Shown: positions 4,146 through 31,820 of the stretch, one piece after another
Layout: each line of letters begins with the position of its first letter
How positions within the stretch are numbered: position 1 is the stretch's first letter
DNA from: a virus
IMG/VR virus record: IMGVR_UViG_3300050015_000074
Coordinates: 1 to 31,820 of that record
Length of the DNA: 31,820 nucleotides
Reading direction: 5' to 3' (one strand)
The notes under the pieces: generated by a model
Seen by the model: only the letters and a program-made list of their open reading frames with translations
The model's database searches: none
Told to the model about the DNA's origin: nothing
Translations under genes and position numbers: made by a program

Positions 4146-4514
4146 ATGGAAACACCAACCCCCCAACAATGGCAAAACTGGCAAAATCATCAATCCAACA
4201 AAGAAAAGTGGATTGATGAAAAGGAACGACAGGACGAAACTTGTGAAGATGGAACGTGCGACGTTGCCCCCAGCGAGGCGGAATTTGAGGCGATGACTGA
4301 TTGTGTGGAACTTAACGCAATCATCGCCAGAAGGGGCTTAAAATGGCTGTGGAGTGCCATTGGCGAGACGGCTAAGTGTGCCGATTGTGGAATAGAGTTG
4401 CAAATTAAGAAATTTATCAAGAAAAAGCAGTACGCGGGGACAGATTTCAAAGAGGACAGCCCAATCAATTACCCAACTGCTCTATTTTGCCCAAAATGCT
4501 ATGGAAAAAATTGA
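4146..4514 (+). CDS. C-terminal zinc-ribbon protein
   Basis: A 122-residue protein starting 4 nt after the previous stop. The N-terminal third is Gln/Trp/Asn-rich (METPTPQQWQNWQNHQ). An acidic linker with CEDGTC follows. The C-terminal 50 residues form a zinc ribbon: CADCG (about 77-81) and CPKCYG at the C-terminus. The middle segment (ELNAIIARRGLKWLW) is helical. It is probably a nucleic-acid or protein-binding accessory factor; no family is recognised. Its end overlaps the gene at 4501. Confidence 0.5.
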   Translation: METPTPQQWQNWQNHQSNKEKWIDEKERQDETCEDGTCDVAPSEAEFEAMTDCVELNAIIARRGLKWLWSAIGETAKCADCGIELQIKKFIKKKQYAGTDFKEDSPINYPTALFCPKCYGKN

Positions 4515-7796: not shown

Positions 7797-8432
7797 ATGT
7801 CAATCACAAAAGCACAAGTTATCTCGAATCTTGAGGAAATTAAAAAGTATGTTTCCGAAATTGAAACCGAGAAAAAAGAAACAAAGAAAATAAACATTCA
7901 GATCAAGAATCATTTTACTGGTTCGATAATTTTCGAAAGCGAAAAAACGACTTACAAAGAAGCTGTAGTTGAGGCAAAAACTAACGGAGTGTCTATGCGC
8001 GGTGCCGACCTGAGCAGTGCCGACCTGAGCGGTGCCGACCTGAGCGGTGCCGACCTGAGCGGTGCCGACCTGAGCGGTGCCTACCTGAGCGGTGCCGACC
8101 TGCGCGGTGCCGACCTGAGCGGTGCCGACCTGAGCGGTGCCTACCTGAGCGGTGCCGACCTGCGCGGTGCCGACCTGAGCGGTGCCCACCTGAGCAGTGC
8201 CGACCTGAGCGGTGCCGACCTGCGCGGTGCCGACCTGAGCGGTGCCGACCTGCGCGGTGCCGACCTGAGCGGTGCCCACCTGAGCGGTGCCGACCTGAGC
8301 GGTGCCGACCTGCGCGATGCCGAATTAAATTACGCGAAGTTTTATGGGCGGGGTGGAACCAAACCACTTAAAAGATCACAATTACCTGATTTTTTGGCGG
8401 CGCTTGGATTTGTGATTGTTGATGAGGAATAA
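7797..8432 (+). CDS. pentapeptide-repeat protein
   Basis: A 211-residue protein. The first 65 residues form a coiled-coil-like helix and a small beta unit ([19 protein letters not shown]) seen before the repeats in other phage pentapeptide proteins. From residue 70 to about 180 there are about 23 repeats of A(D/Y/H)L(S/R)(G/S), expected to fold as a right-handed quadrilateral beta helix. The C-terminus ([16 protein letters not shown]) caps it. Some members mimic DNA and shield gyrase (MfpA/Qnr type), but the near-perfect repeats here give no specific clue. Confidence 0.8.
8004..8318 (+). repeat. 15-bp tandem repeat array encoding the pentapeptides
   Basis: About 21 head-to-tail copies of a 15-bp unit (GGTGCCGACCTGAGC and one- or two-base variants). 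Codon choice is almost identical in every copy, and the GC-rich composition contrasts with the AT-rich flanks. This points to recent expansion by slippage or unequal recombination rather than long divergence. Confidence 0.85.
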
Positions 8433-8435
8433 CCT

Positions 8436-8612
8436 ATGAAACCCCAATGTAAAAACTGTATCTATTACAAGCCCAAGTCCTGTTTAGAAGGCGAATGTTC
8501 TAAGTTTCGCCAGGCAATACTTCGGGCCACTAGCCATTGCGGCTACTTCAAAATAAGCGACGGCGGGACGGGATTGCTGGAAGGGTTTAAAAAACAAAAC
8601 TATGGAAAATAA
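8436..8612 (+). CDS. small Cys-rich zinc-binding protein
   Basis: A 58-residue protein in a CT-ATG context, 3 nt after the pentapeptide gene. Cys5, Cys8, Cys16, Cys21 and the later His34/Cys35 (QCKNCIYYKPKSCLEGEC) suggest a metal-binding module of the type found in many small phage proteins. The C-terminal part is Gly-rich. Its end overlaps the next gene by 11 nt. Role unknown. Confidence 0.55.
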   Translation: MKPQCKNCIYYKPKSCLEGECSKFRQAILRATSHCGYFKISDGGTGLLEGFKKQNYGK

Positions 8613-9522: not shown

Positions 9523-9723
9523 ATGACAACCCTATCCATCATCATCCCAATATTCTTAATCCTAATTACCGCCCGCCTAATCTCCTGGGCACTCACTTAC
9601 TACCGCCCAAAATACTTATGTCCGAAGTGCAAGCATAGGATGAAATATGTTACTTGGCATTACGGCAATAAACAATGGTGGTGTCCAAGTTGTCGAGAAA
9701 TTAATATCCCTGTCGGGAAATAA
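9523..9723 (+). CDS. membrane-anchored zinc-ribbon protein
   Basis: A 66-residue protein 1 nt after the NinG-like stop. One N-terminal transmembrane segment (residues 4-26, TLSIIIPIFLILITARLI) is followed by a zinc ribbon: LCPKCKH (about 32-38) and WCPSCRE (about 53-59). The arrangement mirrors the zinc-plus-anchor protein at 2909 with the order reversed. Function unknown; perhaps a membrane sensor or adaptor. Confidence 0.55.
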   Translation: MTTLSIIIPIFLILITARLISWALTYYRPKYLCPKCKHRMKYVTWHYGNKQWWCPSCREINIPVGK

Positions 9724-10716: not shown

Positions 10717-11073
10717 ATGGAAAAAGAGAAGATCGTGAAACTTATGTGCGGACTTTTATCGGAAGAAGAAAATAAAGATAAAGTTTGCGAATGTGCAGAA
10801 GAAAAATCCAACTTGGGAAGTGAAATCAAAATTGCTGTTCTTGGCCGGGGATGGATTTGTATTGGAAGATACCACGAAGAAGGCGACAAGGGAATTTTAG
10901 AAGATGCTTATGTAATTCGCCGCTGGGGAACTTCCGAAGGGTTGGGACAGTTGGCAAGAGATGGCAAGCAAGGAGATACGGTTTTAGAAAAAACGGGAGT
11001 TGTGCGTTTCGAAAGGTTGACTTCCATCATGTTGATTGATGTAGATCGAAAAAAATGGAAAAACGAATTTTAA
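10717..11073 (+). CDS. DUF6948-like protein
   Basis: A 118-residue protein. The C-terminal part has the order IKIAVLGRGWICIGRY, AYVIRRWGTSEGLGQLARDG and a Glu-Arg-Leu-Thr beta strand near the end. This resembles the DUF6948 pattern: a short beta sheet with an RRWW/YRRW-type strand and a LxxLAxxG helix, seen in many tailed phages. Members often sit next to Gly-Tyr-Gly-rich repeats, as here. The first 35 residues are an acidic Cys-containing extension (VCECAEE). Biochemical role unknown. It overlaps the next gene by 19 nt. Confidence 0.5.
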   Translation: MEKEKIVKLMCGLLSEEENKDKVCECAEEKSNLGSEIKIAVLGRGWICIGRYHEEGDKGILEDAYVIRRWGTSEGLGQLARDGKQGDTVLEKTGVVRFERLTSIMLIDVDRKKWKNEF

Positions 11074-11348
11074 TCGACGAATATTCTCATAGTTTCTTGA
11101 ACGGCAACGGCTACGGCAACGGCGACGGCTACGGCGACGGCAGCGGCGACGGCAACGGCTACGGCAACGGCTACGGCAACGGCTACGGCAACGGCTACGG
11201 CAACGGCGACGGCTACGGCGACGGCAACGGCTACGGCAACTGCAACGGCTACGGCAACGGCAGCGGCGACGGCAACGGCTACGGCAGCGGCGACGGCAAC
11301 GGCTACGGCAACGGCAGCGGCGACGGCAACGGCTACGGCTACGGCTAA
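11055..11348 (+). CDS. Gly/Asn/Tyr/Asp repeat protein
   Basis: A 97-residue protein. After a short unique start (MEKRILIDEYSHSFL) it is a pure run of GNGYG, GDGYG and GSGDG dipeptide-type units. No hydrophobic core is possible, so it is likely disordered or a Gly-rich surface or adhesive peptide. Comparable tails occur on or beside DUF6948-type phage proteins. Here the two are separate overlapping genes, so it may be a detached domain. Function unknown. Confidence 0.55.
   Translation: MEKRILIDEYSHSFLNGNGYGNGDGYGDGSGDGNGYGNGYGNGYGNGYGNGDGYGDGNGYGNCNGYGNGSGDGNGYGSGDGNGYGNGSGDGNGYGYG
11101..11346 (+). repeat. 6-bp/12-bp tandem repeat array (GGCNAC units)
   Basis: About 41 consecutive 6-bp units of GGC followed by AAC, TAC, GAC or AGC, with two TAC-rich ends. 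Codons are almost invariant (GGC for every Gly). Like the 8004-8318 array, it is GC-rich in AT-rich flanks and looks recently expanded. Confidence 0.85.
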
Positions 11349-11362
11349 AAAGATTTAAACCT

Positions 11363-11524
11363 ATGACAGATTCACCTAAACCAACCGTAAAAATCTATTG
11401 TAATAGAAACAACAGTTTCTGGAATTGCCCGCAATGTTTTTACTGTAACAAATTGGAGAGACGCGATGATTGGATAGCAGGCAAGTGCCAGAAGTGCCAG
11501 AAGGAGTTTTTACTTAAAAAATAA
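11363..11524 (+). CDS. small zinc-ribbon protein
   Basis: A 53-residue protein below usual ORF cut-offs, starting in a CT-ATG context. It contains CPQCFYC (residues 22-28) and KCQKCQK (41-47), a complete zinc ribbon, with an extra Cys13. Trp residues flank the knuckles. It ends 1 nt before the M23 peptidase gene. Probable nucleic-acid or protein-binding accessory factor. Confidence 0.55.
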   Translation: MTDSPKPTVKIYCNRNNSFWNCPQCFYCNKLERRDDWIAGKCQKCQKEFLLKK

Positions 11525-12182: not shown

Positions 12183-12371
12183 ATGGAGGAGGAGGTTTTT
12201 AAGACATTAAAAGAATTATCGCCAGCCGATTATGAGATTTGGCGGTGGTTGCGGCAATCTCGCGATGTTTTAATAGTCTTGAAAGAAGTTCGCCGGACAA
12301 AAGTAAGTTTCTATATTCGTGAAGACGGGACTATTGATCGCAGAAGTTTGGAGATAATAAAAAAAATATGA
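12183..12371 (+). CDS. small protein, unknown function
   Basis: A 62-residue protein (MEEEVFKTLKELSPADYEIW start) made of an acidic helix, an aromatic turn and a short beta unit (KVSFYIREDGTIDRR). It starts 4 nt after the membrane peptide and ends in an ATGA overlap with the broken gene at 12368. No family recognised. Confidence 0.5.
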   Translation: MEEEVFKTLKELSPADYEIWRWLRQSRDVLIVLKEVRRTKVSFYIREDGTIDRRSLEIIKKI

Positions 12372-12534
12372 TTAAAAATTGCAATCAATGCGGTGGATAT
12401 TTTAAAATTGTACCATCTCAAATAAAAGTGGGGAATATAAGCGAGAGTTAACAGACTGGTTAAGGTTATGCGTTTCTTGCCATAAGAAATATTATTCAAA
12501 AATCAAGCCTAAAAAAATTAATATAATTTTTTGA
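12368..12534 (+). pseudogene. broken HNH-like / zinc-ribbon gene
   Basis: ATG 12368 (ATGA overlap) encodes MIKNCNQCGGYFKIVPSQIK, then runs to TAA 12449-12451. Another frame continues the protein pattern as GEYKRELTDWLRLCVSCHKK up to TGA 12532-12534. Together they read like one small protein with CxxC and CxxCH knuckles, typical of phage HNH-type zinc proteins. The middle appears shortened and frame-shifted. HNH genes often neighbour terminase genes, as here. A sequencing error is possible, but the missing middle favours real decay. Confidence 0.5.
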
Positions 12535-12537
12535 TTG

Positions 12538-12566
12538 TTGCATTGGTTTTAATATTTTGTTATAAT
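12538..12566 (+). promoter_or_regulatory. sigma-70 promoter of the morphogenesis operon
   Basis: TTGCAT (12538-12543), a 17-nt spacer and TATAAT (12561-12566). Transcription would start near 12573 and run into the attenuator-like RNA and then the small-terminase gene. The layout matches the promoter at 29461. Confidence 0.75.
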
Positions 12567-12572
12567 ATAGTT

Positions 12573-12646
12573 ACAAATTTAATATTTGACGCTTCAAGCG
12601 ATTATTCGCCAAGCCAGTTACCCATTTTATGGGGGCTGGTTTTTTG
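12573..12646 (+). ncRNA. attenuator-like leader RNA, copy A
   Basis: After the start the RNA carries TTAATATTTGACGCT (12580-12594), identical in copy B. A hairpin GCGA-UUAU-UCGC (12598-12609) follows, enclosed by GCUU (12591-12594) pairing with AAGC (12611-12614). That AAGC overlaps the 5' arm of the terminator (12612), so the outer helix and the full terminator cannot coexist. Copy B at 29494 has the same loop and layout with compensating stem changes. Confidence 0.6.
12612..12645 (+). terminator. rho-independent terminator in the late-operon leader
   Basis: AGCCAG (12612-12617) pairs with CTGGTT (12636-12641), with an inner CCCAT/ATGGG stem (12621-12625 with 12629-12633) and a run of six T (12640-12645). 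It lies between the promoter and the terminase genes, so it must be read through for late expression. Confidence 0.75.
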
Positions 12647-12651
12647 TTTAT

Positions 12652-12704
12652 AACTTGCGGCTCTTATCCCTCACCTTTCTCGCAAGTTGGGTGCGGGATA
12701 GGAG
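12652..12704 (+). promoter_or_regulatory. interleaved inverted repeats (pseudoknot-like), upstream of terminase
   Basis: AACTTGCG (12652-12659) pairs with CGCAAGTT (12681-12688). CTCTTATCCC-T-CACC (12661-12675) pairs with GGTG-C-GGGATAGGAG (12690-12704, one mismatch, one GU). The two helices interleave as A-B-A'-B', so they form an H-type pseudoknot or two alternative hairpins. It lies 43 nt before the small-terminase ATG and could act in RNA regulation or as a packaging-site DNA structure. Confidence 0.5.
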
Positions 12705-12746
12705 TTGCCATAGGAAATTTGATTATTTGAATAATAACAAAAAGGT

Positions 12747-13124
12747 ATGTCAGTAAAACAGAAAAACAGCGATAAAATCACCGATAAAAGATTAAAAAAT
12801 CTCAAACCAGCTTGGAAAGAGGGTGAAAGCGGAAATCCTAACGGCAGACCGCTGGGAACTAAAAATTTTAATACTGATTTTGATGAAGCGGTTAAAGAAA
12901 TAGCGGAAGAAAAAAAGATTACCACGAGCGAGGCGCGGAAGATATTAATTAAAAAAGCGTTTACCGAAGCCGAGAAAGGTAATTTTCCTTTTTACAAGGA
13001 TATTTGCGACAGATATTACGGCAAAGCGCAAGAAAATTTGGACTTAACAAGCGGAGGCGAAAAACTTTCTATAAATTTTGATCCGATATTTGAATGCAAC
13101 TCCACGAAAAACAACGAGAAATAA
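12747..13124 (+). CDS. small terminase subunit-like protein (DUF5681-type N-terminus)
   Basis: A 125-residue basic protein. Residues 24-37 (AWKEGESGNPNGRP) carry the W-x-x-GxSGNPxGRP motif of DUF5681-type phage proteins found immediately upstream of large terminases. A helical middle (VKEIAEEKKITTSEARK) and a C-terminal region for contacts with the large subunit follow. It should recognise phage DNA for packaging. It overlaps the terminase large-subunit gene by 31 nt, which supports the pairing. Confidence 0.6.
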   Translation: MSVKQKNSDKITDKRLKNLKPAWKEGESGNPNGRPLGTKNFNTDFDEAVKEIAEEKKITTSEARKILIKKAFTEAEKGNFPFYKDICDRYYGKAQENLDLTSGGEKLSINFDPIFECNSTKNNEK

Positions 13125-14452
13125 TTGCGAATAAGGCAAGGTTTAAAGTTATTCGCGCCGGTAGGAAAGGAGGGAAAACAACGATGGAAGTGGAGGATAT
13201 GAGTTTTGCGGCGGTTAGCGGGAAAGACAGAAATATTTTCTATATCGCGCCAACCCAGATTCAGGCAAGGGATATTGTTTGGGAAACATTTAAAAGAAAA
13301 TTATTTAAAATTGCAGATTTTAACGAGCAAAGGCTGGAAATAAAAGTACCAACGCAAGAGGGAGGATATTCAATCATAAAATTATCAGGCTGGGAAAATA
13401 GAGAAAATTTTAGAGGAAAATCGGCTTATAAATTGGTATTTGATGAAGTAGACACAATGGTAGAGTTTTTTTTAGGATGGCAAGACATTTTCAGACCGAC
13501 ATTGCTTGATACTGGAGGGGAGGCGACATTTATCGGAACTCCTAAAAAAGAAAATCCCAATTTGCGAAGATTGGAAAAAGCGGCTCTAACGGACACAACA
13601 TTCGCGACATTTCATTTTACTTCGTTAGATAATCCTTATTTGTCGCAGGTTGAATTGGAGAGTATTAAAAATGAATACAAAGATAATCCAGAATCATACC
13701 GGCAAGAGATTTTAGCGGAACATATTGATAATTCCGGAGCCTTATTCAAGTATGAGGCTTTAGTGGATATTTTCAGCAATACGATTGTCAAAAAACCAGA
13801 GAAGTATTTGACAGTAGATATTGCAGATGACGGTAGCGACAAAACAATATTCAGCTTTTGGGAAAGTTTAGAAGAATACCGCCGGGAAGAATTTGAGCGT
13901 TTGAACACCGAAGGGATTATCCAAAAAATCAGGGAATATGCGCAAACCGAGCGGATACCGTACAGCCAAATTGCCGTTGACGCGATCGGAGTAGGTGCAG
14001 GAGTGGCGAGTAATAGTCTACTGGACGGGATAATCGGGTTTAAGAGTAGTTACGCGGCAATAAAGACCGACACAAACATAGTTTTATTGCCTTACGCGAC
14101 ATTTATTGATCCGCCGAAGACCAGCGATTACAAGAATTTGCGAAGCCAGTGCGTTTTCACCCTTGCGGATAAAGTAAACAATCACCAGATCGCTTCTAAA
14201 GTAACAGGGAAACAGAAAGAAGAAATAATCGAGGAATTGTCCAACTATCAGGACGCAAGCGCCGGAGATGGCAAAAGAATGGCAACGGTGAAAGAGAAAG
14301 TTAAGGAGATTATTGGCAGATCACCGGACTCAAGCGATTGTTTCATTATGAGAATGTATTTTGAGGTTATGGCAAAAGTGTCCCCGGTTCAAAGCGATAT
14401 AAAACCAAGAATATGGCAACACCAAGAACAACGAAAAAACGTAGCAATATAA
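13094..14452 (+). CDS. terminase large subunit
   Basis: A 452-residue packaging motor. The ATPase domain has a Walker A-like RAGRKGGKTT (21-30), Walker B KLVFDEVD (113-120) with catalytic Glu, and the coupling motif IGTP (147-150). The C-terminal RNase H-like nuclease has TVDIADDGSDKT (240-251, Asp242), IAVDAIG (293-299, Asp296) and SPDSSDC (410-416), the three acidic metal sites. Length is normal for the family. It cuts concatemers and pumps DNA into the prohead through the portal encoded downstream. The 3' end overlaps the next gene by 40 nt. Confidence 0.9.
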   Translation: MQLHEKQREIIANKARFKVIRAGRKGGKTTMEVEDMSFAAVSGKDRNIFYIAPTQIQARDIVWETFKRKLFKIADFNEQRLEIKVPTQEGGYSIIKLSGWENRENFRGKSAYKLVFDEVDTMVEFFLGWQDIFRPTLLDTGGEATFIGTPKKENPNLRRLEKAALTDTTFATFHFTSLDNPYLSQVELESIKNEYKDNPESYRQEILAEHIDNSGALFKYEALVDIFSNTIVKKPEKYLTVDIADDGSDKTIFSFWESLEEYRREEFERLNTEGIIQKIREYAQTERIPYSQIAVDAIGVGAGVASNSLLDGIIGFKSSYAAIKTDTNIVLLPYATFIDPPKTSDYKNLRSQCVFTLADKVNNHQIASKVTGKQKEEIIEELSNYQDASAGDGKRMATVKEKVKEIIGRSPDSSDCFIMRMYFEVMAKVSPVQSDIKPRIWQHQEQRKNVAI

Positions 14453-27038: not shown

Positions 27039-28733
27039 ATGGCACAAGGATTTACATTAGAACAATTGCAGGGAATGGGAGCAAAACCCGTTACAAATCC
27101 AACCCCATCGTCTGGTGGATTGACTTTGCAACAGATAATTGCGAAACAACAGGCAACGCCCGCGCCGGTGCAACAGACGGGGCTTTTGCAAAATGTGGGA
27201 CAGGGAATAAATGATGTTGTAAATAAAGTTGGTAATACTGCCGGCGAACTTGGCATTGGAATAATCAGGGGCGTGGGTTCAACACTTAATGGAATTTCAC
27301 AAAATGGGCAAAATATAGCCAACGCAACAATCAACAAAATCCCTGGACTTGGAGGGCAACAGCCAATCGCGCAACTCCCCGGTATGGAAACTCAAGGGAC
27401 GGCGCAGGCAATAGGAAAAGGCGCAGAACAAATCGGTGAATTTTTCATTCCCTCAAGTTTAGTTACAAAAACAACAAAAGCGTTGGAAGCCACCAGTGTT
27501 GTAAAAGCGGCTAGTGCTTTAGGTAAAGTTGGTAAAATCGCGGGAACAGCAATAAGCCACGGAATACCAGAAGCTTTGAATACGGCAGGAGTAACAATGG
27601 CGCAAACTGGTGGCGATATTGGTGATTCTATTCGTAATGGGATTATTGCCGGGATTGTGCCGGTAGTCGGTAAAGCGTTAAGCGTGTTAAAACCAGTTAC
27701 AGGTACAATTAGATCAATAGCGACTGGAGTTCCAAAAGAGGTATTTCAGGGAATTAAAGAAAATCCCGACGCTTACGCCGTGGCATTGCAACACGTTACG
27801 GAAAATCCCAAACAACCATTTTTACAATTAGCTGATACCATTAAAAACAGAATGGTTGATACGATGGGTAAGGCACAACAAGCTTATAAACAAGGGGCTG
27901 ACGCTTTAGCGCAAAAATTTACAGGTAAAACATTTAATTTAAATCCCGGATTAAAAAGCTTGTTCAATACTCTTAACAACGATTTCCATATTGCAGTTAA
28001 GCCTTCTACCAGTGGAAATTATGCGTATGAAGCTGTCAAAACGGCGCAAACTCCTTTATCGAATAAAGATTTAGGGGTGATTGATGATTTGATACACTCA
28101 GTTGCTCAGTCTAAAAAGGTTGATTTAAAAACCGCTGTTGATCTACGACAGAAATTCGATGAGGTATATAATAATTTACCATTATCCGCTTCTGGCGAAA
28201 AAACCAAACTTCACGCCGTTGTCCAGTCAATGAGTAATAAGGTTGATGAAATAGTCAACAAAGCAATCCCCGAATTAAAACCTATCAATCAAAACTTTTC
28301 CCAAGTGAAAAATATTTTTGATACATTTAAAACAAAATTTGTAGATAGCAACGGGCAATTAAAGCAAGGAGCTGAACAGTTTTTGTCTAATTTGCAAAAC
28401 CTTAATAAGGGAGCGCAACAACAAAGCATTGCAACCTTGGAAAGATTAACCGGCGTGCCTATTTTAGACAATATAGAACTTCTTAAAAATGCTCAAAAAC
28501 TGCAAGGGTTGATCGCGCCTACCGGTAACAGGACAAGAGATATTTTAAACGCTTTGCTGATAGGAAGTGGTGTATGGATGCACAATCCTGTCGCAGCAGG
28601 TGCGGGTTTTCTTGCGACTTCTCCAAGAATGGTCGGGGAAGCATCTATTAAAGCTGAAAAAGCAGTTGAGGCAATAGAAAAAAACGCCCCTCAAGTTTTG
28701 AAGGGTTTAGTTAATCGAGTAACGGGAAAATAA
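27039..28733 (+). CDS. large virion protein with amphipathic Gly/Ala segments, ejection candidate
   Basis: A 564-residue protein. The N-terminal 200 residues are rich in Gly, Ala, Gln and Ile (GIIRGVGSTLNGISQNGQNI, then GIPEALNTAGVTMAQTGG, IIAGIVPVVGKAL), the sort of membrane-active region seen in ejection proteins. The rest is helical (about 230-480) with a short hydrophobic stretch near 520-545 (LLIGSGVWMHNPVAAGAGF). It is the last + strand gene of the operon. Most likely an internal virion protein that helps DNA cross the envelope. Confidence 0.5.
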   Translation: MAQGFTLEQLQGMGAKPVTNPTPSSGGLTLQQIIAKQQATPAPVQQTGLLQNVGQGINDVVNKVGNTAGELGIGIIRGVGSTLNGISQNGQNIANATINKIPGLGGQQPIAQLPGMETQGTAQAIGKGAEQIGEFFIPSSLVTKTTKALEATSVVKAASALGKVGKIAGTAISHGIPEALNTAGVTMAQTGGDIGDSIRNGIIAGIVPVVGKALSVLKPVTGTIRSIATGVPKEVFQGIKENPDAYAVALQHVTENPKQPFLQLADTIKNRMVDTMGKAQQAYKQGADALAQKFTGKTFNLNPGLKSLFNTLNNDFHIAVKPSTSGNYAYEAVKTAQTPLSNKDLGVIDDLIHSVAQSKKVDLKTAVDLRQKFDEVYNNLPLSASGEKTKLHAVVQSMSNKVDEIVNKAIPELKPINQNFSQVKNIFDTFKTKFVDSNGQLKQGAEQFLSNLQNLNKGAQQQSIATLERLTGVPILDNIELLKNAQKLQGLIAPTGNRTRDILNALLIGSGVWMHNPVAAGAGFLATSPRMVGEASIKAEKAVEAIEKNAPQVLKGLVNRVTGK

Positions 28734-28737
28734 CTCA

Positions 28738-28803
28738 TCAATCTTTGTGAGATAATCTTAAAGCAATATAGATTATTAAAACTAGAGATATAAATTCAAT
28801 CAT
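28738..28803 (-). CDS. 21-residue hydrophobic peptide, minus strand
   Basis: On the minus strand, ATG at 28803 (context TAT-ATG, as elsewhere in this genome) encodes MIEFISLVLIIYIALRLSHKD. Nearly all of it is one membrane-spanning helix with a charged C-terminus. It lies 14 nt downstream of the minus-strand zinc-ribbon gene, so both could share one mRNA. Size and composition resemble small hydrophobic toxin or regulator peptides, but chance cannot be excluded. Confidence 0.35.
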   Translation of the reverse strand: MIEFISLVLIIYIALRLSHKD

Positions 28804-28817
28804 ATATTTTTTTTTAG

Positions 28818-29012
28818 TTAGAAAAGTAATTTTTGCTCGCCGCTATTTTTTATCAATCCCTTTTCTTGCATTTCAAGATATTCATAATGATTGACTATAC
28901 TACGGCAAGCAGAACACGAAAGATATTCGGGAAACACACATTGAGGATTAAACCTTAAAACCAGTTTACCGCTGCATTTCCTACATTTTGAGTTTGTCGT
29001 TGTGATGTTCAT
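28818..29012 (-). CDS. zinc-ribbon protein on the minus strand
   Basis: A 64-residue protein (MNITTTNSKCRKCSGKLVL start). CRKC (10-13) and a second CSAC (about 32-35) give a full four-Cys zinc ribbon. The rest is a helix with YEYLEMQEKGLI. It is one of only two minus-strand genes in the window and is preceded by its own promoter (29385-29414) and a ~370-nt non-coding leader. A DNA- or RNA-binding regulator is the simplest guess. Start support: ATG after AGGATT, the only weak Shine-Dalgarno on this strand. Confidence 0.55.
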   Translation of the reverse strand: MNITTTNSKCRKCSGKLVLRFNPQCVFPEYLSCSACRSIVNHYEYLEMQEKGLIKNSGEQKLLF

Positions 29013-29378
29013 AATCCTGATGAGGTAAGTAAGAAAGGGGTAAAGCCAGGGAATTAGATTCCGACTTGTTTCATCAGTAGGCCGTTCTATCCGGGCTGAA
29101 TAATATAGATGTTTTTATGCGGGTTTAATGGTTTACCCGTTTAACGATCATTGCAAGGGTACTATATCCGTTGCAGGAAAGAAAACCAGATGAGTATAAG
29201 GCACGGAATGCTGTCCGGCACATCAGAGGTTTTAATGGATGATTACTTGGCAACCAGCGGGGGAACACCCAATTCGCCAGACCTTATCCGCCAGAATATA
29301 ACAAAAGTGGATTGACTCTGGCGCGTCAATCCACTTCTACAAAGAATTCTTTAAATTGGGTAATACGCCAGTATCACA
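29013..29378 (-). ncRNA. long structured non-coding leader on the minus strand
   Basis: No credible ORF exists here in six frames. Hairpins include GGAAT-TAG-ATTCC, CGGGT/ACCCG, a TGCAA/TTGCA stem with an inner GG/TCC, and CTGATGA pairing with TCATCAG across about 40 nt. Four CGCCAG-type words occur (near 29274, 29289, 29365, and inverted at 29317). Expected transcription is from the minus promoter at 29385-29414 toward the zinc-ribbon gene. It may be a regulatory leader, an operator region, or a stand-alone RNA. I match it to no known family. Confidence 0.4.
29305..29336. repeat. 12-bp inverted repeat with CGCCAG-loop complement
   Basis: AAGTGGATTGAC (29305-29316) and GTCAATCCACTT (29325-29336) form a perfect 12-bp stem with an 8-nt loop TCTGGCGC. 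The loop is complementary to CGCCAGA at 29289-29295. Read on the minus strand, the stem ends in CACTTTTG, so it can also act as an attenuator about 45-75 nt after the minus-strand start. Confidence 0.6.
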
Positions 29379-29460: not shown

Positions 29461-29487
29461 TTGCTTTCCATTATTTTTTGCTATAAT
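29461..29487 (+). promoter_or_regulatory. sigma-70 promoter of the tail-fibre operon
   Basis: TATAAT at 29482-29487 with TTGCTT (29461-29466, 15-nt spacer) or TGTTGC (29459-29464, 17-nt spacer) as -35. The -35 is weaker than in copy A, but the surrounding sequence aligns with the promoter at 12538. Confidence 0.6.
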
Positions 29488-29493
29488 ACAACC

Positions 29494-29569
29494 ATAAATT
29501 AATATTTGACGCTCTATCTGTTATCAGACGAGCCAGCGATTCCCTTAAATGGGACGTTGGCTTTTTTTC
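29494..29569 (+). ncRNA. attenuator-like leader RNA, copy B
   Basis: The RNA carries the same TTAATATTTGACGCT (29499-29513). A hairpin TCUG-UUAU-CAGA (29517-29528) has the same UUAU loop as copy A but a different four-base-pair stem. Outer GCUC (29511-29514) pairs with GAGC (29530-29533). Where copy A has GCUU/AAGC, copy B has GCUC/GAGC, a compensating change. The GAGC overlaps the terminator 5' arm starting at 29531. Confidence 0.6.
29531..29568 (+). terminator. strong rho-independent terminator at the fibre-gene start
   Basis: AGCCAGCG (29531-29538) pairs with CGTTGGCT (29555-29562) over eight base pairs, with an inner TCCC/GGGA stem (29541-29544 with 29551-29554), then seven T (29562-29568). 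The fibre ATG follows at 29576, so translation needs read-through. Confidence 0.75.
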
Positions 29570-29575
29570 TTTTAT

Positions 29576-30256
29576 ATGGACGACCAACTTAAAAAATTGC
29601 AAGTATTGTTAAGTTCAATGGATCAAGACTTTTTGTCAAAGTCTGATTTTATCAAAGAGTTTGAGCGCGTGCTTTCTTTTGTTAAAGCTTTGAAAGAAGG
29701 TAATACCACGGCTTTCGCTAAGATCAATGGTCAAATCGGGGGTATCGTGTCGAGATTAAAGGAAAACAATGAAGTTGAAATTACGCAAGCCAAAAACGAA
29801 GTGCTTGCGCTGGTTTCCGATTATATCAAGCAGATTGACAAAACGACCGCGCAAAAAATGAAAGCGGTTGATTCGAGGTTGGCAGAATTGAAGAGTGGGA
29901 TGGACGGCAAGGATGCTGACGAACAAGCTATTACTAAAACCGTCGCAGAGGCCATACAAGCCCCACTGTTGGACAAAATCGAGAAAGACCTACCTACGCT
30001 CGGTACAGCAATCAGAGATGGCTTAGAGGTTTTAAATGGCAAGGAACGATTGGATAAAAGCGCGATCAAGGGATTAGACGATTATGACGAAGTTGCAAGG
30101 TTGGCCAAACAACCGAAAGCGGGAGGATTTGGCGGGGGATTGAGTAGGGGTGTAGCCGATGGCCTTTACATAACCGGCGTAGGAACCCATAAAATGACCG
30201 TCGGCGCGGTTGAACCAACCAACCCCGCCGAAGGTGATATTTGGATTCAAATTTAA
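29576..30256 (+). CDS. tail-fibre/needle-like coiled-coil protein
   Basis: A 226-residue protein (ATG 29576; the frame is open to 29549, but that part is terminator). Residues 1-125 form a helical coiled coil (DDQLKKLQVLLSSMDQ start). A Gly-rich hinge (KAGGFGGGLSRGVADG) and a short C-terminal beta motif (GAVEPTNPAEGDIWIQI) follow, as at the ends of many tail-fibre proteins. It sits 7 nt after the terminator and is the first gene of the last operon. Likely trimeric; partner of the downstream fibre genes. Confidence 0.6.
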   Translation: MDDQLKKLQVLLSSMDQDFLSKSDFIKEFERVLSFVKALKEGNTTAFAKINGQIGGIVSRLKENNEVEITQAKNEVLALVSDYIKQIDKTTAQKMKAVDSRLAELKSGMDGKDADEQAITKTVAEAIQAPLLDKIEKDLPTLGTAIRDGLEVLNGKERLDKSAIKGLDDYDEVARLAKQPKAGGFGGGLSRGVADGLYITGVGTHKMTVGAVEPTNPAEGDIWIQI

Positions 30257-30275: not shown

Positions 30276-30758
30276 ATGTATTTAGACAAAGTTATTTTGA
30301 AACCGGACGGGCATATCGCTTTAATAGGCTACCCGACGCAAAAAGAAATTGATACGTTGCCCCGCAAAAAAGACGGATCTCCCGATATTACCAAGCTTCC
30401 AAACGAAACTTGCCGGACGTTAATTCTTCAATGCCTTAATTTTTCCAAAACATTCGGTTTTGATGAAAGTATGGCGGTAATGGCAATCGGGAAGAAAGTA
30501 AGGGAAGAAGGAAATATCAGATTTAACGATTACGAATTGGATTTATTGAAAAAGATTGTGCGCGATCAGATTTATGAAGAAAAAAACACCTTCGAGGGAA
30601 AGGTCGAGAAGAAAGGAATTTACCGAGGATGGGCAATCGCCCAGGTATTGCAAGAACTCGGTGAGCAGACAAATGTTTCTCTCTATACGCAGGGAATTAA
30701 AAAACAAGAAGCTGTAATTTTCCCCGTAACCGTGAGAACCGATGAAGATAAAAAATAA
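30276..30758 (+). CDS. tail-operon protein, unknown function
   Basis: A 160-residue protein (MYLDKVILKPDGHIALIGYP start), 19 nt after the fibre-like gene in an AT-ATG context. It has a beta-rich N-terminus and a helical middle (CLNFSKTFGFDESMAVMAIG, then RGWAIAQVLQELG). In many phages a small fibre-assembly or chaperone gene sits here. No family is recognised from sequence, so that role is only positional. Confidence 0.45.
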   Translation: MYLDKVILKPDGHIALIGYPTQKEIDTLPRKKDGSPDITKLPNETCRTLILQCLNFSKTFGFDESMAVMAIGKKVREEGNIRFNDYELDLLKKIVRDQIYEEKNTFEGKVEKKGIYRGWAIAQVLQELGEQTNVSLYTQGIKKQEAVIFPVTVRTDEDKK

Positions 30759-30773
30759 ATAAAATAAAAAACT

Positions 30774-31202
30774 ATGGCAGATGTTATATTTACTGGTTTT
30801 AAAAACCAATTATTGCAAGCCGGTATCAATTTAAACACAACCGATACCATTAAGTTAGCTCTTTGCACATCGTCTTACACGCCTAATCAAGATACCCATT
30901 TGACTTTTAACCAAGTTACCAATGAAGTGTCTAACGCCAACTATACCGCGGGCGGGGCGACGTTAAGCACTCATTCAGTGGCGCCCGACAACACAAACCA
31001 CCGTTCTATTTTTAATTGTTCGGTCAATGTTACCTGGCCCAACGTAACCCTAACCGCCAGATATGGCGTGCTTTACAAGTCTAGTGGCAACAACAACACC
31101 AGTCCGCTAATTTGTGCGTTTGATTTTGGGGCCGATAAAACGGCTTCAGGCGGTACGTTTGAAGTTGACTGGAATGCGGTAGGAATTTGCGCTTTAACAT
31201 AA
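30774..31202 (+). CDS. small phage structural protein (beta-sandwich type)
   Basis: A 142-residue protein in a CT-ATGG context. The pattern IKLALCTSSYTPNQDTH, then NYTAGGATLSTHSV, TARYGVLYKSS and C-terminal FEVDWNAVGI is one I recall from many tailed phages, usually near tail-fibre genes. It is beta-rich with few charged residues and fits a virion structural or head-fibre protein. The function in those phages is not known to me. Confidence 0.55.
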   Translation: MADVIFTGFKNQLLQAGINLNTTDTIKLALCTSSYTPNQDTHLTFNQVTNEVSNANYTAGGATLSTHSVAPDNTNHRSIFNCSVNVTWPNVTLTARYGVLYKSSGNNNTSPLICAFDFGADKTASGGTFEVDWNAVGICALT

Positions 31203-31209
31203 ATTTAAA

Positions 31210-31820
31210 ATGGATAAAAAAATCGCTACGCCAAAAAAGCCTTCAGTTAATATTGTTGTGCCGTCTTCGCGATATTCGATGCACCCGGAATGTGCGATGT
31301 CATTATTTGAGAACTTTATGGATCTGATCGCGCACGGTTATGGCGTGGTGTTTAAGTTTATGGCTTCATCGTCGTTTATTTCCGCAACGCGCAATATGTG
31401 CGCCGTGGATTTAAAACAAGACTATTTGATGTTTGTTGACGATGATGAGAAATTTCCGCCTTACGCTATCCGGCAGCTGCTTGAAGCCAACAAGGATATT
31501 ATCGGCGGCCTTTATTACAAGAAAGGCGACGATTTTAACCCGATGGCGGTAGTTATCAGCCAGGAGAAAATGAATATCGATTACGTCAAAGATATTCCGA
31601 CCAAACCCTTTTTGTGTGATGGGGTAAACACCGGATTTTTACTTATTAAGAAAAAGGTGTTTGAAGCTTTTACGCCGGATAAAGTCAAGGAGATGGGAAT
31701 GCCGTTTAACTTTTGGACACGTCCGTCCGACGGCCGGGAAATATCCGAAGATTGGGCATTCTGTATGCGCGCGTCAAAACTGGGGTTCAAAATATGGTGC
31801 GACCCGACGTTTCCTATCGG
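31210..31820 (+). CDS. glycosyltransferase-like protein, truncated by the window end
   Basis: The frame starts at ATG 31210 and runs to the last base (203 codons seen). After a Lys-rich start it has VNIVVPSSRYSMHPEC and a helical MSLFENFMDLIAHGYG. LMFVDDDEKF (the DxD-type metal/nucleotide-sugar site, near residues 76-85) precedes IIGGLYYKKG. ISEDWAFCMRASKLGFKIWC matches the acidic ED motif of GT2-like transferases. Such phage enzymes may glycosylate virion proteins or modify host surface sugars. The substrate is unknown and the C-terminus is outside the window. Confidence 0.65.
   Translation, partial: MDKKIATPKKPSVNIVVPSSRYSMHPECAMSLFENFMDLIAHGYGVVFKFMASSSFISATRNMCAVDLKQDYLMFVDDDEKFPPYAIRQLLEANKDIIGGLYYKKGDDFNPMAVVISQEKMNIDYVKDIPTKPFLCDGVNTGFLLIKKKVFEAFTPDKVKEMGMPFNFWTRPSDGREISEDWAFCMRASKLGFKIWCDPTFPI

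Follow-up and report, generated by a model that had tools for sequence, protein, structure and literature searches.

In phage lambda, a nut site consists of boxA followed by the boxB hairpin, which has a 5-nt loop, and acts with the N protein. The pR'-tR' region of lambdoid phages comprises a promoter, a −10-like sequence in the initial transcribed region and, ahead of the late genes, an intrinsic terminator (PMC6606751). In the AlpA-dependent PalpB-tB unit of Pseudomonas aeruginosa, a promoter element and a terminator just downstream precede lysis or late-type genes (PMC9371919). A single phage, HK022, carries near its promoters two similar but non-identical structured RNAs of about 70 nt, putL and putR (PMC9378689).

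We examined a viral record of 31,820 bases (linear class), whose whole length is referred to as the window, and in which two related leaders, copies A and B, stand in front of two operons. The closest record, IMGVR_UViG_3300050014_000094, is more than 99.9% identical over the compared parts and represents the same virus; both copies are unchanged in it. With the exception of this record, the 57 IMG/VR relatives that make up the terminase group share 57–72% identity. Since one terminase relative (63% identity) sits in a Parcubacteria genome bin, a Parcubacteria-like host, that is, an ultrasmall bacterium, is suggested; of the other two terminase matches in genomes, one fell in an archaeal bin, the other in an unclassified bacterial bin. 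To our knowledge, little is known about gene timing in viruses of Parcubacteria-like bacteria, and a literature search on terminators in phages of such bacteria gave no result.

Copy A is located where the early gene block meets the late one, both on one strand. Its promoter (12558-12566, + strand) has an extended −10 element, TGTTATAAT, and a weak −35 region. The first-pass annotation had called a sigma-70 promoter here; the promoter itself stands, but not a full consensus, as the −35 of A is poor and a consensus scan lists neither A nor B. The RNA would start near 12573, about 7 nt past the −10 element, and the predicted leader extends through the end of the U-tract (12573-12646, +; fold −22.3 kcal/mol, z −4.2). 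Within it lies a 15-nt box, TTAATATTTGACGCT (12579-12593, +), which contains a −10-like TAATAT and thereby places such a sequence in the initial transcribed region. It is followed by an outer stem, GCUU/AAGC (12591-12594 / 12611-12614, +), around an inner hairpin with a UUAU loop, GCGA-UUAU-UCGC (12598-12609, +). For the leader as it stands prior to synthesis of the terminator, the pairs of both stems have probabilities of 0.94–1.0. Intrinsic terminator A (12611-12645, +) consists of a hairpin of −15.6 kcal/mol and a U-tract, and its first 4 nt are common to the outer stem. The copy has further features: TTTAATATTT is repeated 30 nt apart around the −10 element, a CAAAT-N5-ATTTG dyad is present, and a weak 5' hairpin is predicted in the leader of A only. 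The direct repeat is absent in copy B.

The first gene behind A is the small terminase (DUF5681; 12747-13124, +), followed by the large terminase (13094-14452, +) and further genes. Terminator A is separated from the small terminase by 100 nt, in which neither the consensus scan nor a promoter search found a promoter-like site. This 5' UTR contains a strong 52-nt hairpin (12657-12708, +; −34.5 kcal/mol, z −4.8) that the earlier annotation did not mention, and an alternative pseudoknot can be drawn between 12652-12659 and 12681-12688 (AACTTGCG with CGCAAGTT). Just upstream of promoter A, a small CxxC...CxxCH ORF (12368-12531) is apparently split across two frames.

Copy B has the same layout. 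Promoter B (29479-29487, +) has the extended −10 element TGCTATAAT, and its predicted leader runs through the U-tract end (29494-29568, +; fold −22.9 kcal/mol, z −4.6). The box recurs at 29499-29513 (+), confirming that the two copies have this segment in common; it occurs exactly twice in the record. Outer stem B, GCUC/GAGC (29511-29514 / 29530-29533, +), surrounds the inner hairpin UCUG-UUAU-CAGA (29517-29528, +), again with a UUAU loop, and intrinsic terminator B (29530-29568, +) has a hairpin of −19.6 kcal/mol and a U-tract. About 8 nt separate its end from the next start codon, at 29576. Because terminator B stands between its promoter and this start codon, and the gap is too short for a further promoter, the gene at 29576 needs read-through to be expressed. 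That gene (29576-30256, +) encodes a coiled-coil, tail-like protein, and is followed by ORFs at 30276-30758 and 30774-31202 (phrog_644; both +) and by one at 31210-31820 (+), glycosyltransferase-like by eye. The last ORF is unfinished at the end of the record, so operon B continues past the window, and sequence outside the window could hold more copies of the element. Judged by their sequences, the genes behind A and B look like packaging or virion genes.

The two copies have in common the promoter class, the spacing, the box, the hairpin loop and the terminator, with the terminator U-tract 75 nt (A) and 77 nt (B) past the −10 element. Their alignment over about 90 nt scored 43; the best of 2000 dinucleotide shuffles reached 30, and the next best place in the window 25. 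The whole alignment is thus beyond chance. By contrast, the 15-mer by itself was rejected as evidence, since by simple counting a sequence of 31.8 kb would contain about 0.5 such pairs. For neither leader did any of 200 shuffles fold as well. The UUAU hairpins with terminators directly downstream, and the outer pairs overlapping the terminator arm, were found in both copies as previously described. The inner stem had been reported as fully changed; in fact three of its four pairs differ, the second (C-G) being kept between GCGA/UCGC and UCUG/CAGA. Over both helices, four of the eight leader pairs are compensated, four are unchanged and none is broken. The chance that four random 3' letters would all pair is 0.5% for Watson-Crick pairs and 3% when G-U is allowed, and a shuffle control on pairing reached the observed level in 24 of 500 trials, a weak control with two sequences only. 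The proposal of covariation under selection on structure therefore keeps its compensated pairs but gains no wider support: as the element is private to one virus, the covariation rests on two paralogous copies. A leader peptide was considered and rejected; TTG codons at 12586 and 29506 open frames, but these have neither an ATG nor a Shine-Dalgarno sequence, and an indel sets the copies apart. Taken as a whole, the analysis shows a genuine feature with a non-random arrangement.

In both leaders the outer stem and the full terminator are mutually exclusive folds. The end states were calculated at −22.3 versus −19.9 kcal/mol for A and −22.9 versus −20.1 kcal/mol for B, with the full terminator the more stable by 2.4 and 2.8 kcal/mol, respectively. 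Fold prediction on the growing RNA has the outer stem forming first (probability about 0.99) and being displaced only once the last terminator bases are made. As in attenuators, alternative folds of comparable energy share a segment, and the small gap between them makes a conditional terminator feasible. When the outer stem is formed, a hairpin of 9–10 bp is still left, 1–2 nt from the U-tract; as no more than the terminator base is lost to the stem, the stem may not prevent termination alone. A further contribution, from a bound factor or by steric action on the polymerase, is probably needed.

A third promoter-terminator unit, overlooked in the first-pass annotation, lies divergent from B on the minus strand (unit C, 29414-29301, −). 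Its promoter is TTGACA-18-TATAAT (29414-29385, −), a 12/12 match in the consensus scan, and its terminator hairpin of 15–16 bp (29340-29301, −) contains TTGACGC in the stem-loop. The leader of about 78 nt has three predicted hairpins and a z of −5.6, and at the sequence level it does not duplicate A or B. Downstream of it is a zinc-ribbon-like ORF of 64 aa with CxxC...CxxC (28818-29012, −); such small ORFs recur in the window, at 4146-4514, 8436-8612, 9523-9723 and 11363-11524. The stretch 28685-29378 (−) was considered as a large noncoding RNA and rejected, its fold having a z of only −2.3 and a small ORF lying inside. Elsewhere, a perfect early-type promoter, TTGACA-16-TGcTATAAT (2788-2815, +), lies downstream of a terminator at 2566-2583; in contrast to A and B, its −35 is complete and it is not followed by a leader terminator. 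In-frame 15-nt tandem repeats occur in a pentapeptide-repeat protein at 7921-8398, and GGC-rich 12-nt tandem repeats at 11053-11388 (ORF 11055-11348).

Whether such pairing is usual among relatives was assessed with one terminator definition applied everywhere, counting a terminator 25–170 nt downstream of a strong promoter. In the window, three of five promoters had one, namely A (75 nt), B (77 nt) and C (78 nt, minus strand), while the 61 related contigs gave 2 of 128 (Fisher P = 2.5e-4); measured against the window's own terminator density, the pairing gave P = 6e-4. Twelve relatives carry an extended −10 site of the same kind in the 260 nt preceding the small terminase, where promoter density predicts about 1–2, so that promoter A occupies a recurrent late-promoter position. 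The −10 element of these relatives often lies only 12–17 nt before the small-terminase start codon. L005, L007, L010 and L032 are of this kind, a spacing that suggests leaderless or nearly leaderless terminase mRNAs. As relatives often have the promoter and rarely the terminator, the gate appears to have been added here to an existing late promoter.

The homologue search called for by the first-pass annotation, which had named a lack of homologues in related phages as refuting, spoke largely against a conserved RNA family. Apart from the same-virus record, the leader was not found among the 57 terminase relatives. Three scans of IMG/VR, for patterns that constrained the hairpin, promoter and box, gave, among the matches listed, no full context of promoter, hairpin and terminator; most of these matches read as coding sequence, with the same-virus record the exception. 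The leader was likewise not found in 384 sampled genomes from the class to which the Parcubacteria bin belongs, where one match arose by chance in AT-rich sequence, nor in 380 from the phylum, about 760 genomes together. Since the genome searches had no positive control and the IMG/VR result holds among the matches listed, this absence is not absolute. A covariance model (R1) gave a high score for the two copies only, and its best other match (L127) was discarded as an AT-rich chance match. Rfam, at gathering and at relaxed thresholds, returned nothing credible, and no family exceeded its gathering threshold. A signal conserved across genomes, as riboswitches and attenuators have, was not seen here, no homologues having been found.

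We give about an even chance to the view that A and B are conditional terminators, serving as twin gates on late (virion) operons. A gating or attenuation switch had been put forward for copy A; a gate on two operons fits the anatomy and a switch is plausible, but the conserved family did not materialise and no antiterminator gene was recognised. Each extended −10 promoter would start a leader RNA of about 75 nt that ends at an intrinsic terminator, and as a result the default product would be a short terminated RNA; late mRNA would arise when RNA polymerase passes the terminator. The outer stem around the UUAU hairpin would form first and take the first 4 nt of the terminator 5' arm. The box at +4 to +20 and the UUAU hairpin would together be the likely recognition signal for a factor that overrides the terminator, which may be phage-encoded or may be RNA polymerase itself. 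We infer that both sites are active, and that such a factor exists and acts late. A more specific statement, that a phage-specific RNA element serves twice as an RNA-based switch of late operons, unlike lambda Q, its UUAU hairpin and outer stem holding off the terminator either through a bound phage factor or by direct action on RNA polymerase, strikes us as rather doubtful. The main rival reading, which we consider unlikely, takes A and B as genes for two related small RNAs acting on other transcripts, with their position before operons due to chance or convenience. A promoter, about 75 nt and a terminator are the standard layout of a small RNA gene, which unit C has likewise, and the best-conserved part of A and B is mostly single-stranded and seed-like. 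Against this, the complement of the box extends to no more than 11 nt anywhere in the window, in a match that lies inside a coding region, and terminator B, 8 nt before a start codon with no promoter between, would leave that gene silent unless it leaks.

It is also conceivable, and in our judgement distinctly improbable, that the box works as DNA, either as an operator or as the place where a Q/AlpA-type protein loads; the protein, bound at the promoter or in the initial transcribed region, would make polymerase terminator-resistant, and the RNA hairpin would be of minor importance. The promoter, TAATAT in the initial transcribed region, the close terminator and the late genes all resemble those systems (PMC6606751, PMC9371919), and copy A has the TTTAATATTT repeat around its −10 element as well as the dyad. 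However, the absence of the repeat from B speaks against a common operator, the compensated hairpin changes would then be a coincidence (0.5–3%), and no Q-like protein was found among the ORFs scanned. Very improbable, finally, is the absence of any regulated switch, with terminator A a separator of early and late genes and B and C ordinary leaders with leaky terminators. The junction position of A on a single strand would suit such a role, as would the lack of conservation of the structure in relatives, but an insulator normally stands upstream of a late promoter rather than downstream, and one would not expect two copies that agree in fold energy and have compensated stems.

Among the known systems, those closest in function are the lambdoid Q systems of lambda and phage 21 and AlpA with tB, and HK022 put is the nearest case of paired structured RNAs in a single phage. 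As in the Q systems, a terminator lies between the late promoter and the late genes. The locus differs from them in having two gates instead of one, a leader of about 75 nt and a compensated hairpin adjoining the terminator, and in that neither a Q homologue nor a TGAGCA-type direct repeat present in both A and B was found; a Q binding element is common to the promoters of regulated sites, whereas the repeat here is in A only. Sigma-dependent pausing at a −10-like sequence is another trait of the Q systems, for which the TAATAT in the 15-mer would be a candidate site. Searches of the early ORFs scanned (Pfam, PHROGs) gave no match to a Q- or N-like protein, an absence of little weight as Q-type proteins diverge strongly. 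The AlpA element lies between −35 and −10, whereas the box lies downstream of the start site, and no AlpA homologue was found. The put RNAs of HK022 have two long stem-loops over about 70 nt that bind the zinc-binding domain of RNA polymerase, with distant terminators in early operons; here one 8-pair stem-loop precedes and overlaps the terminator, in late operons. The small hairpin comes after a CGCU(C) segment, an order reminiscent of boxA-boxB, but CGCTTCAA in A is not boxA-like, the loop is UUAU rather than the 5-nt loop of boxB, and no N was found; the set of boxA and boxB at each site with an N protein is thus absent. Membership in the lambdoid Q, AlpA or HK022 put class in each case fails or lacks support on at least one defining feature. 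If the gating is real, it would be a compact late switch with built-in replication in its two copies, added within one lineage to a late promoter that relatives often have, rarely with such a terminator, and conditional termination of late operons would reach beyond the lambdoid phages.
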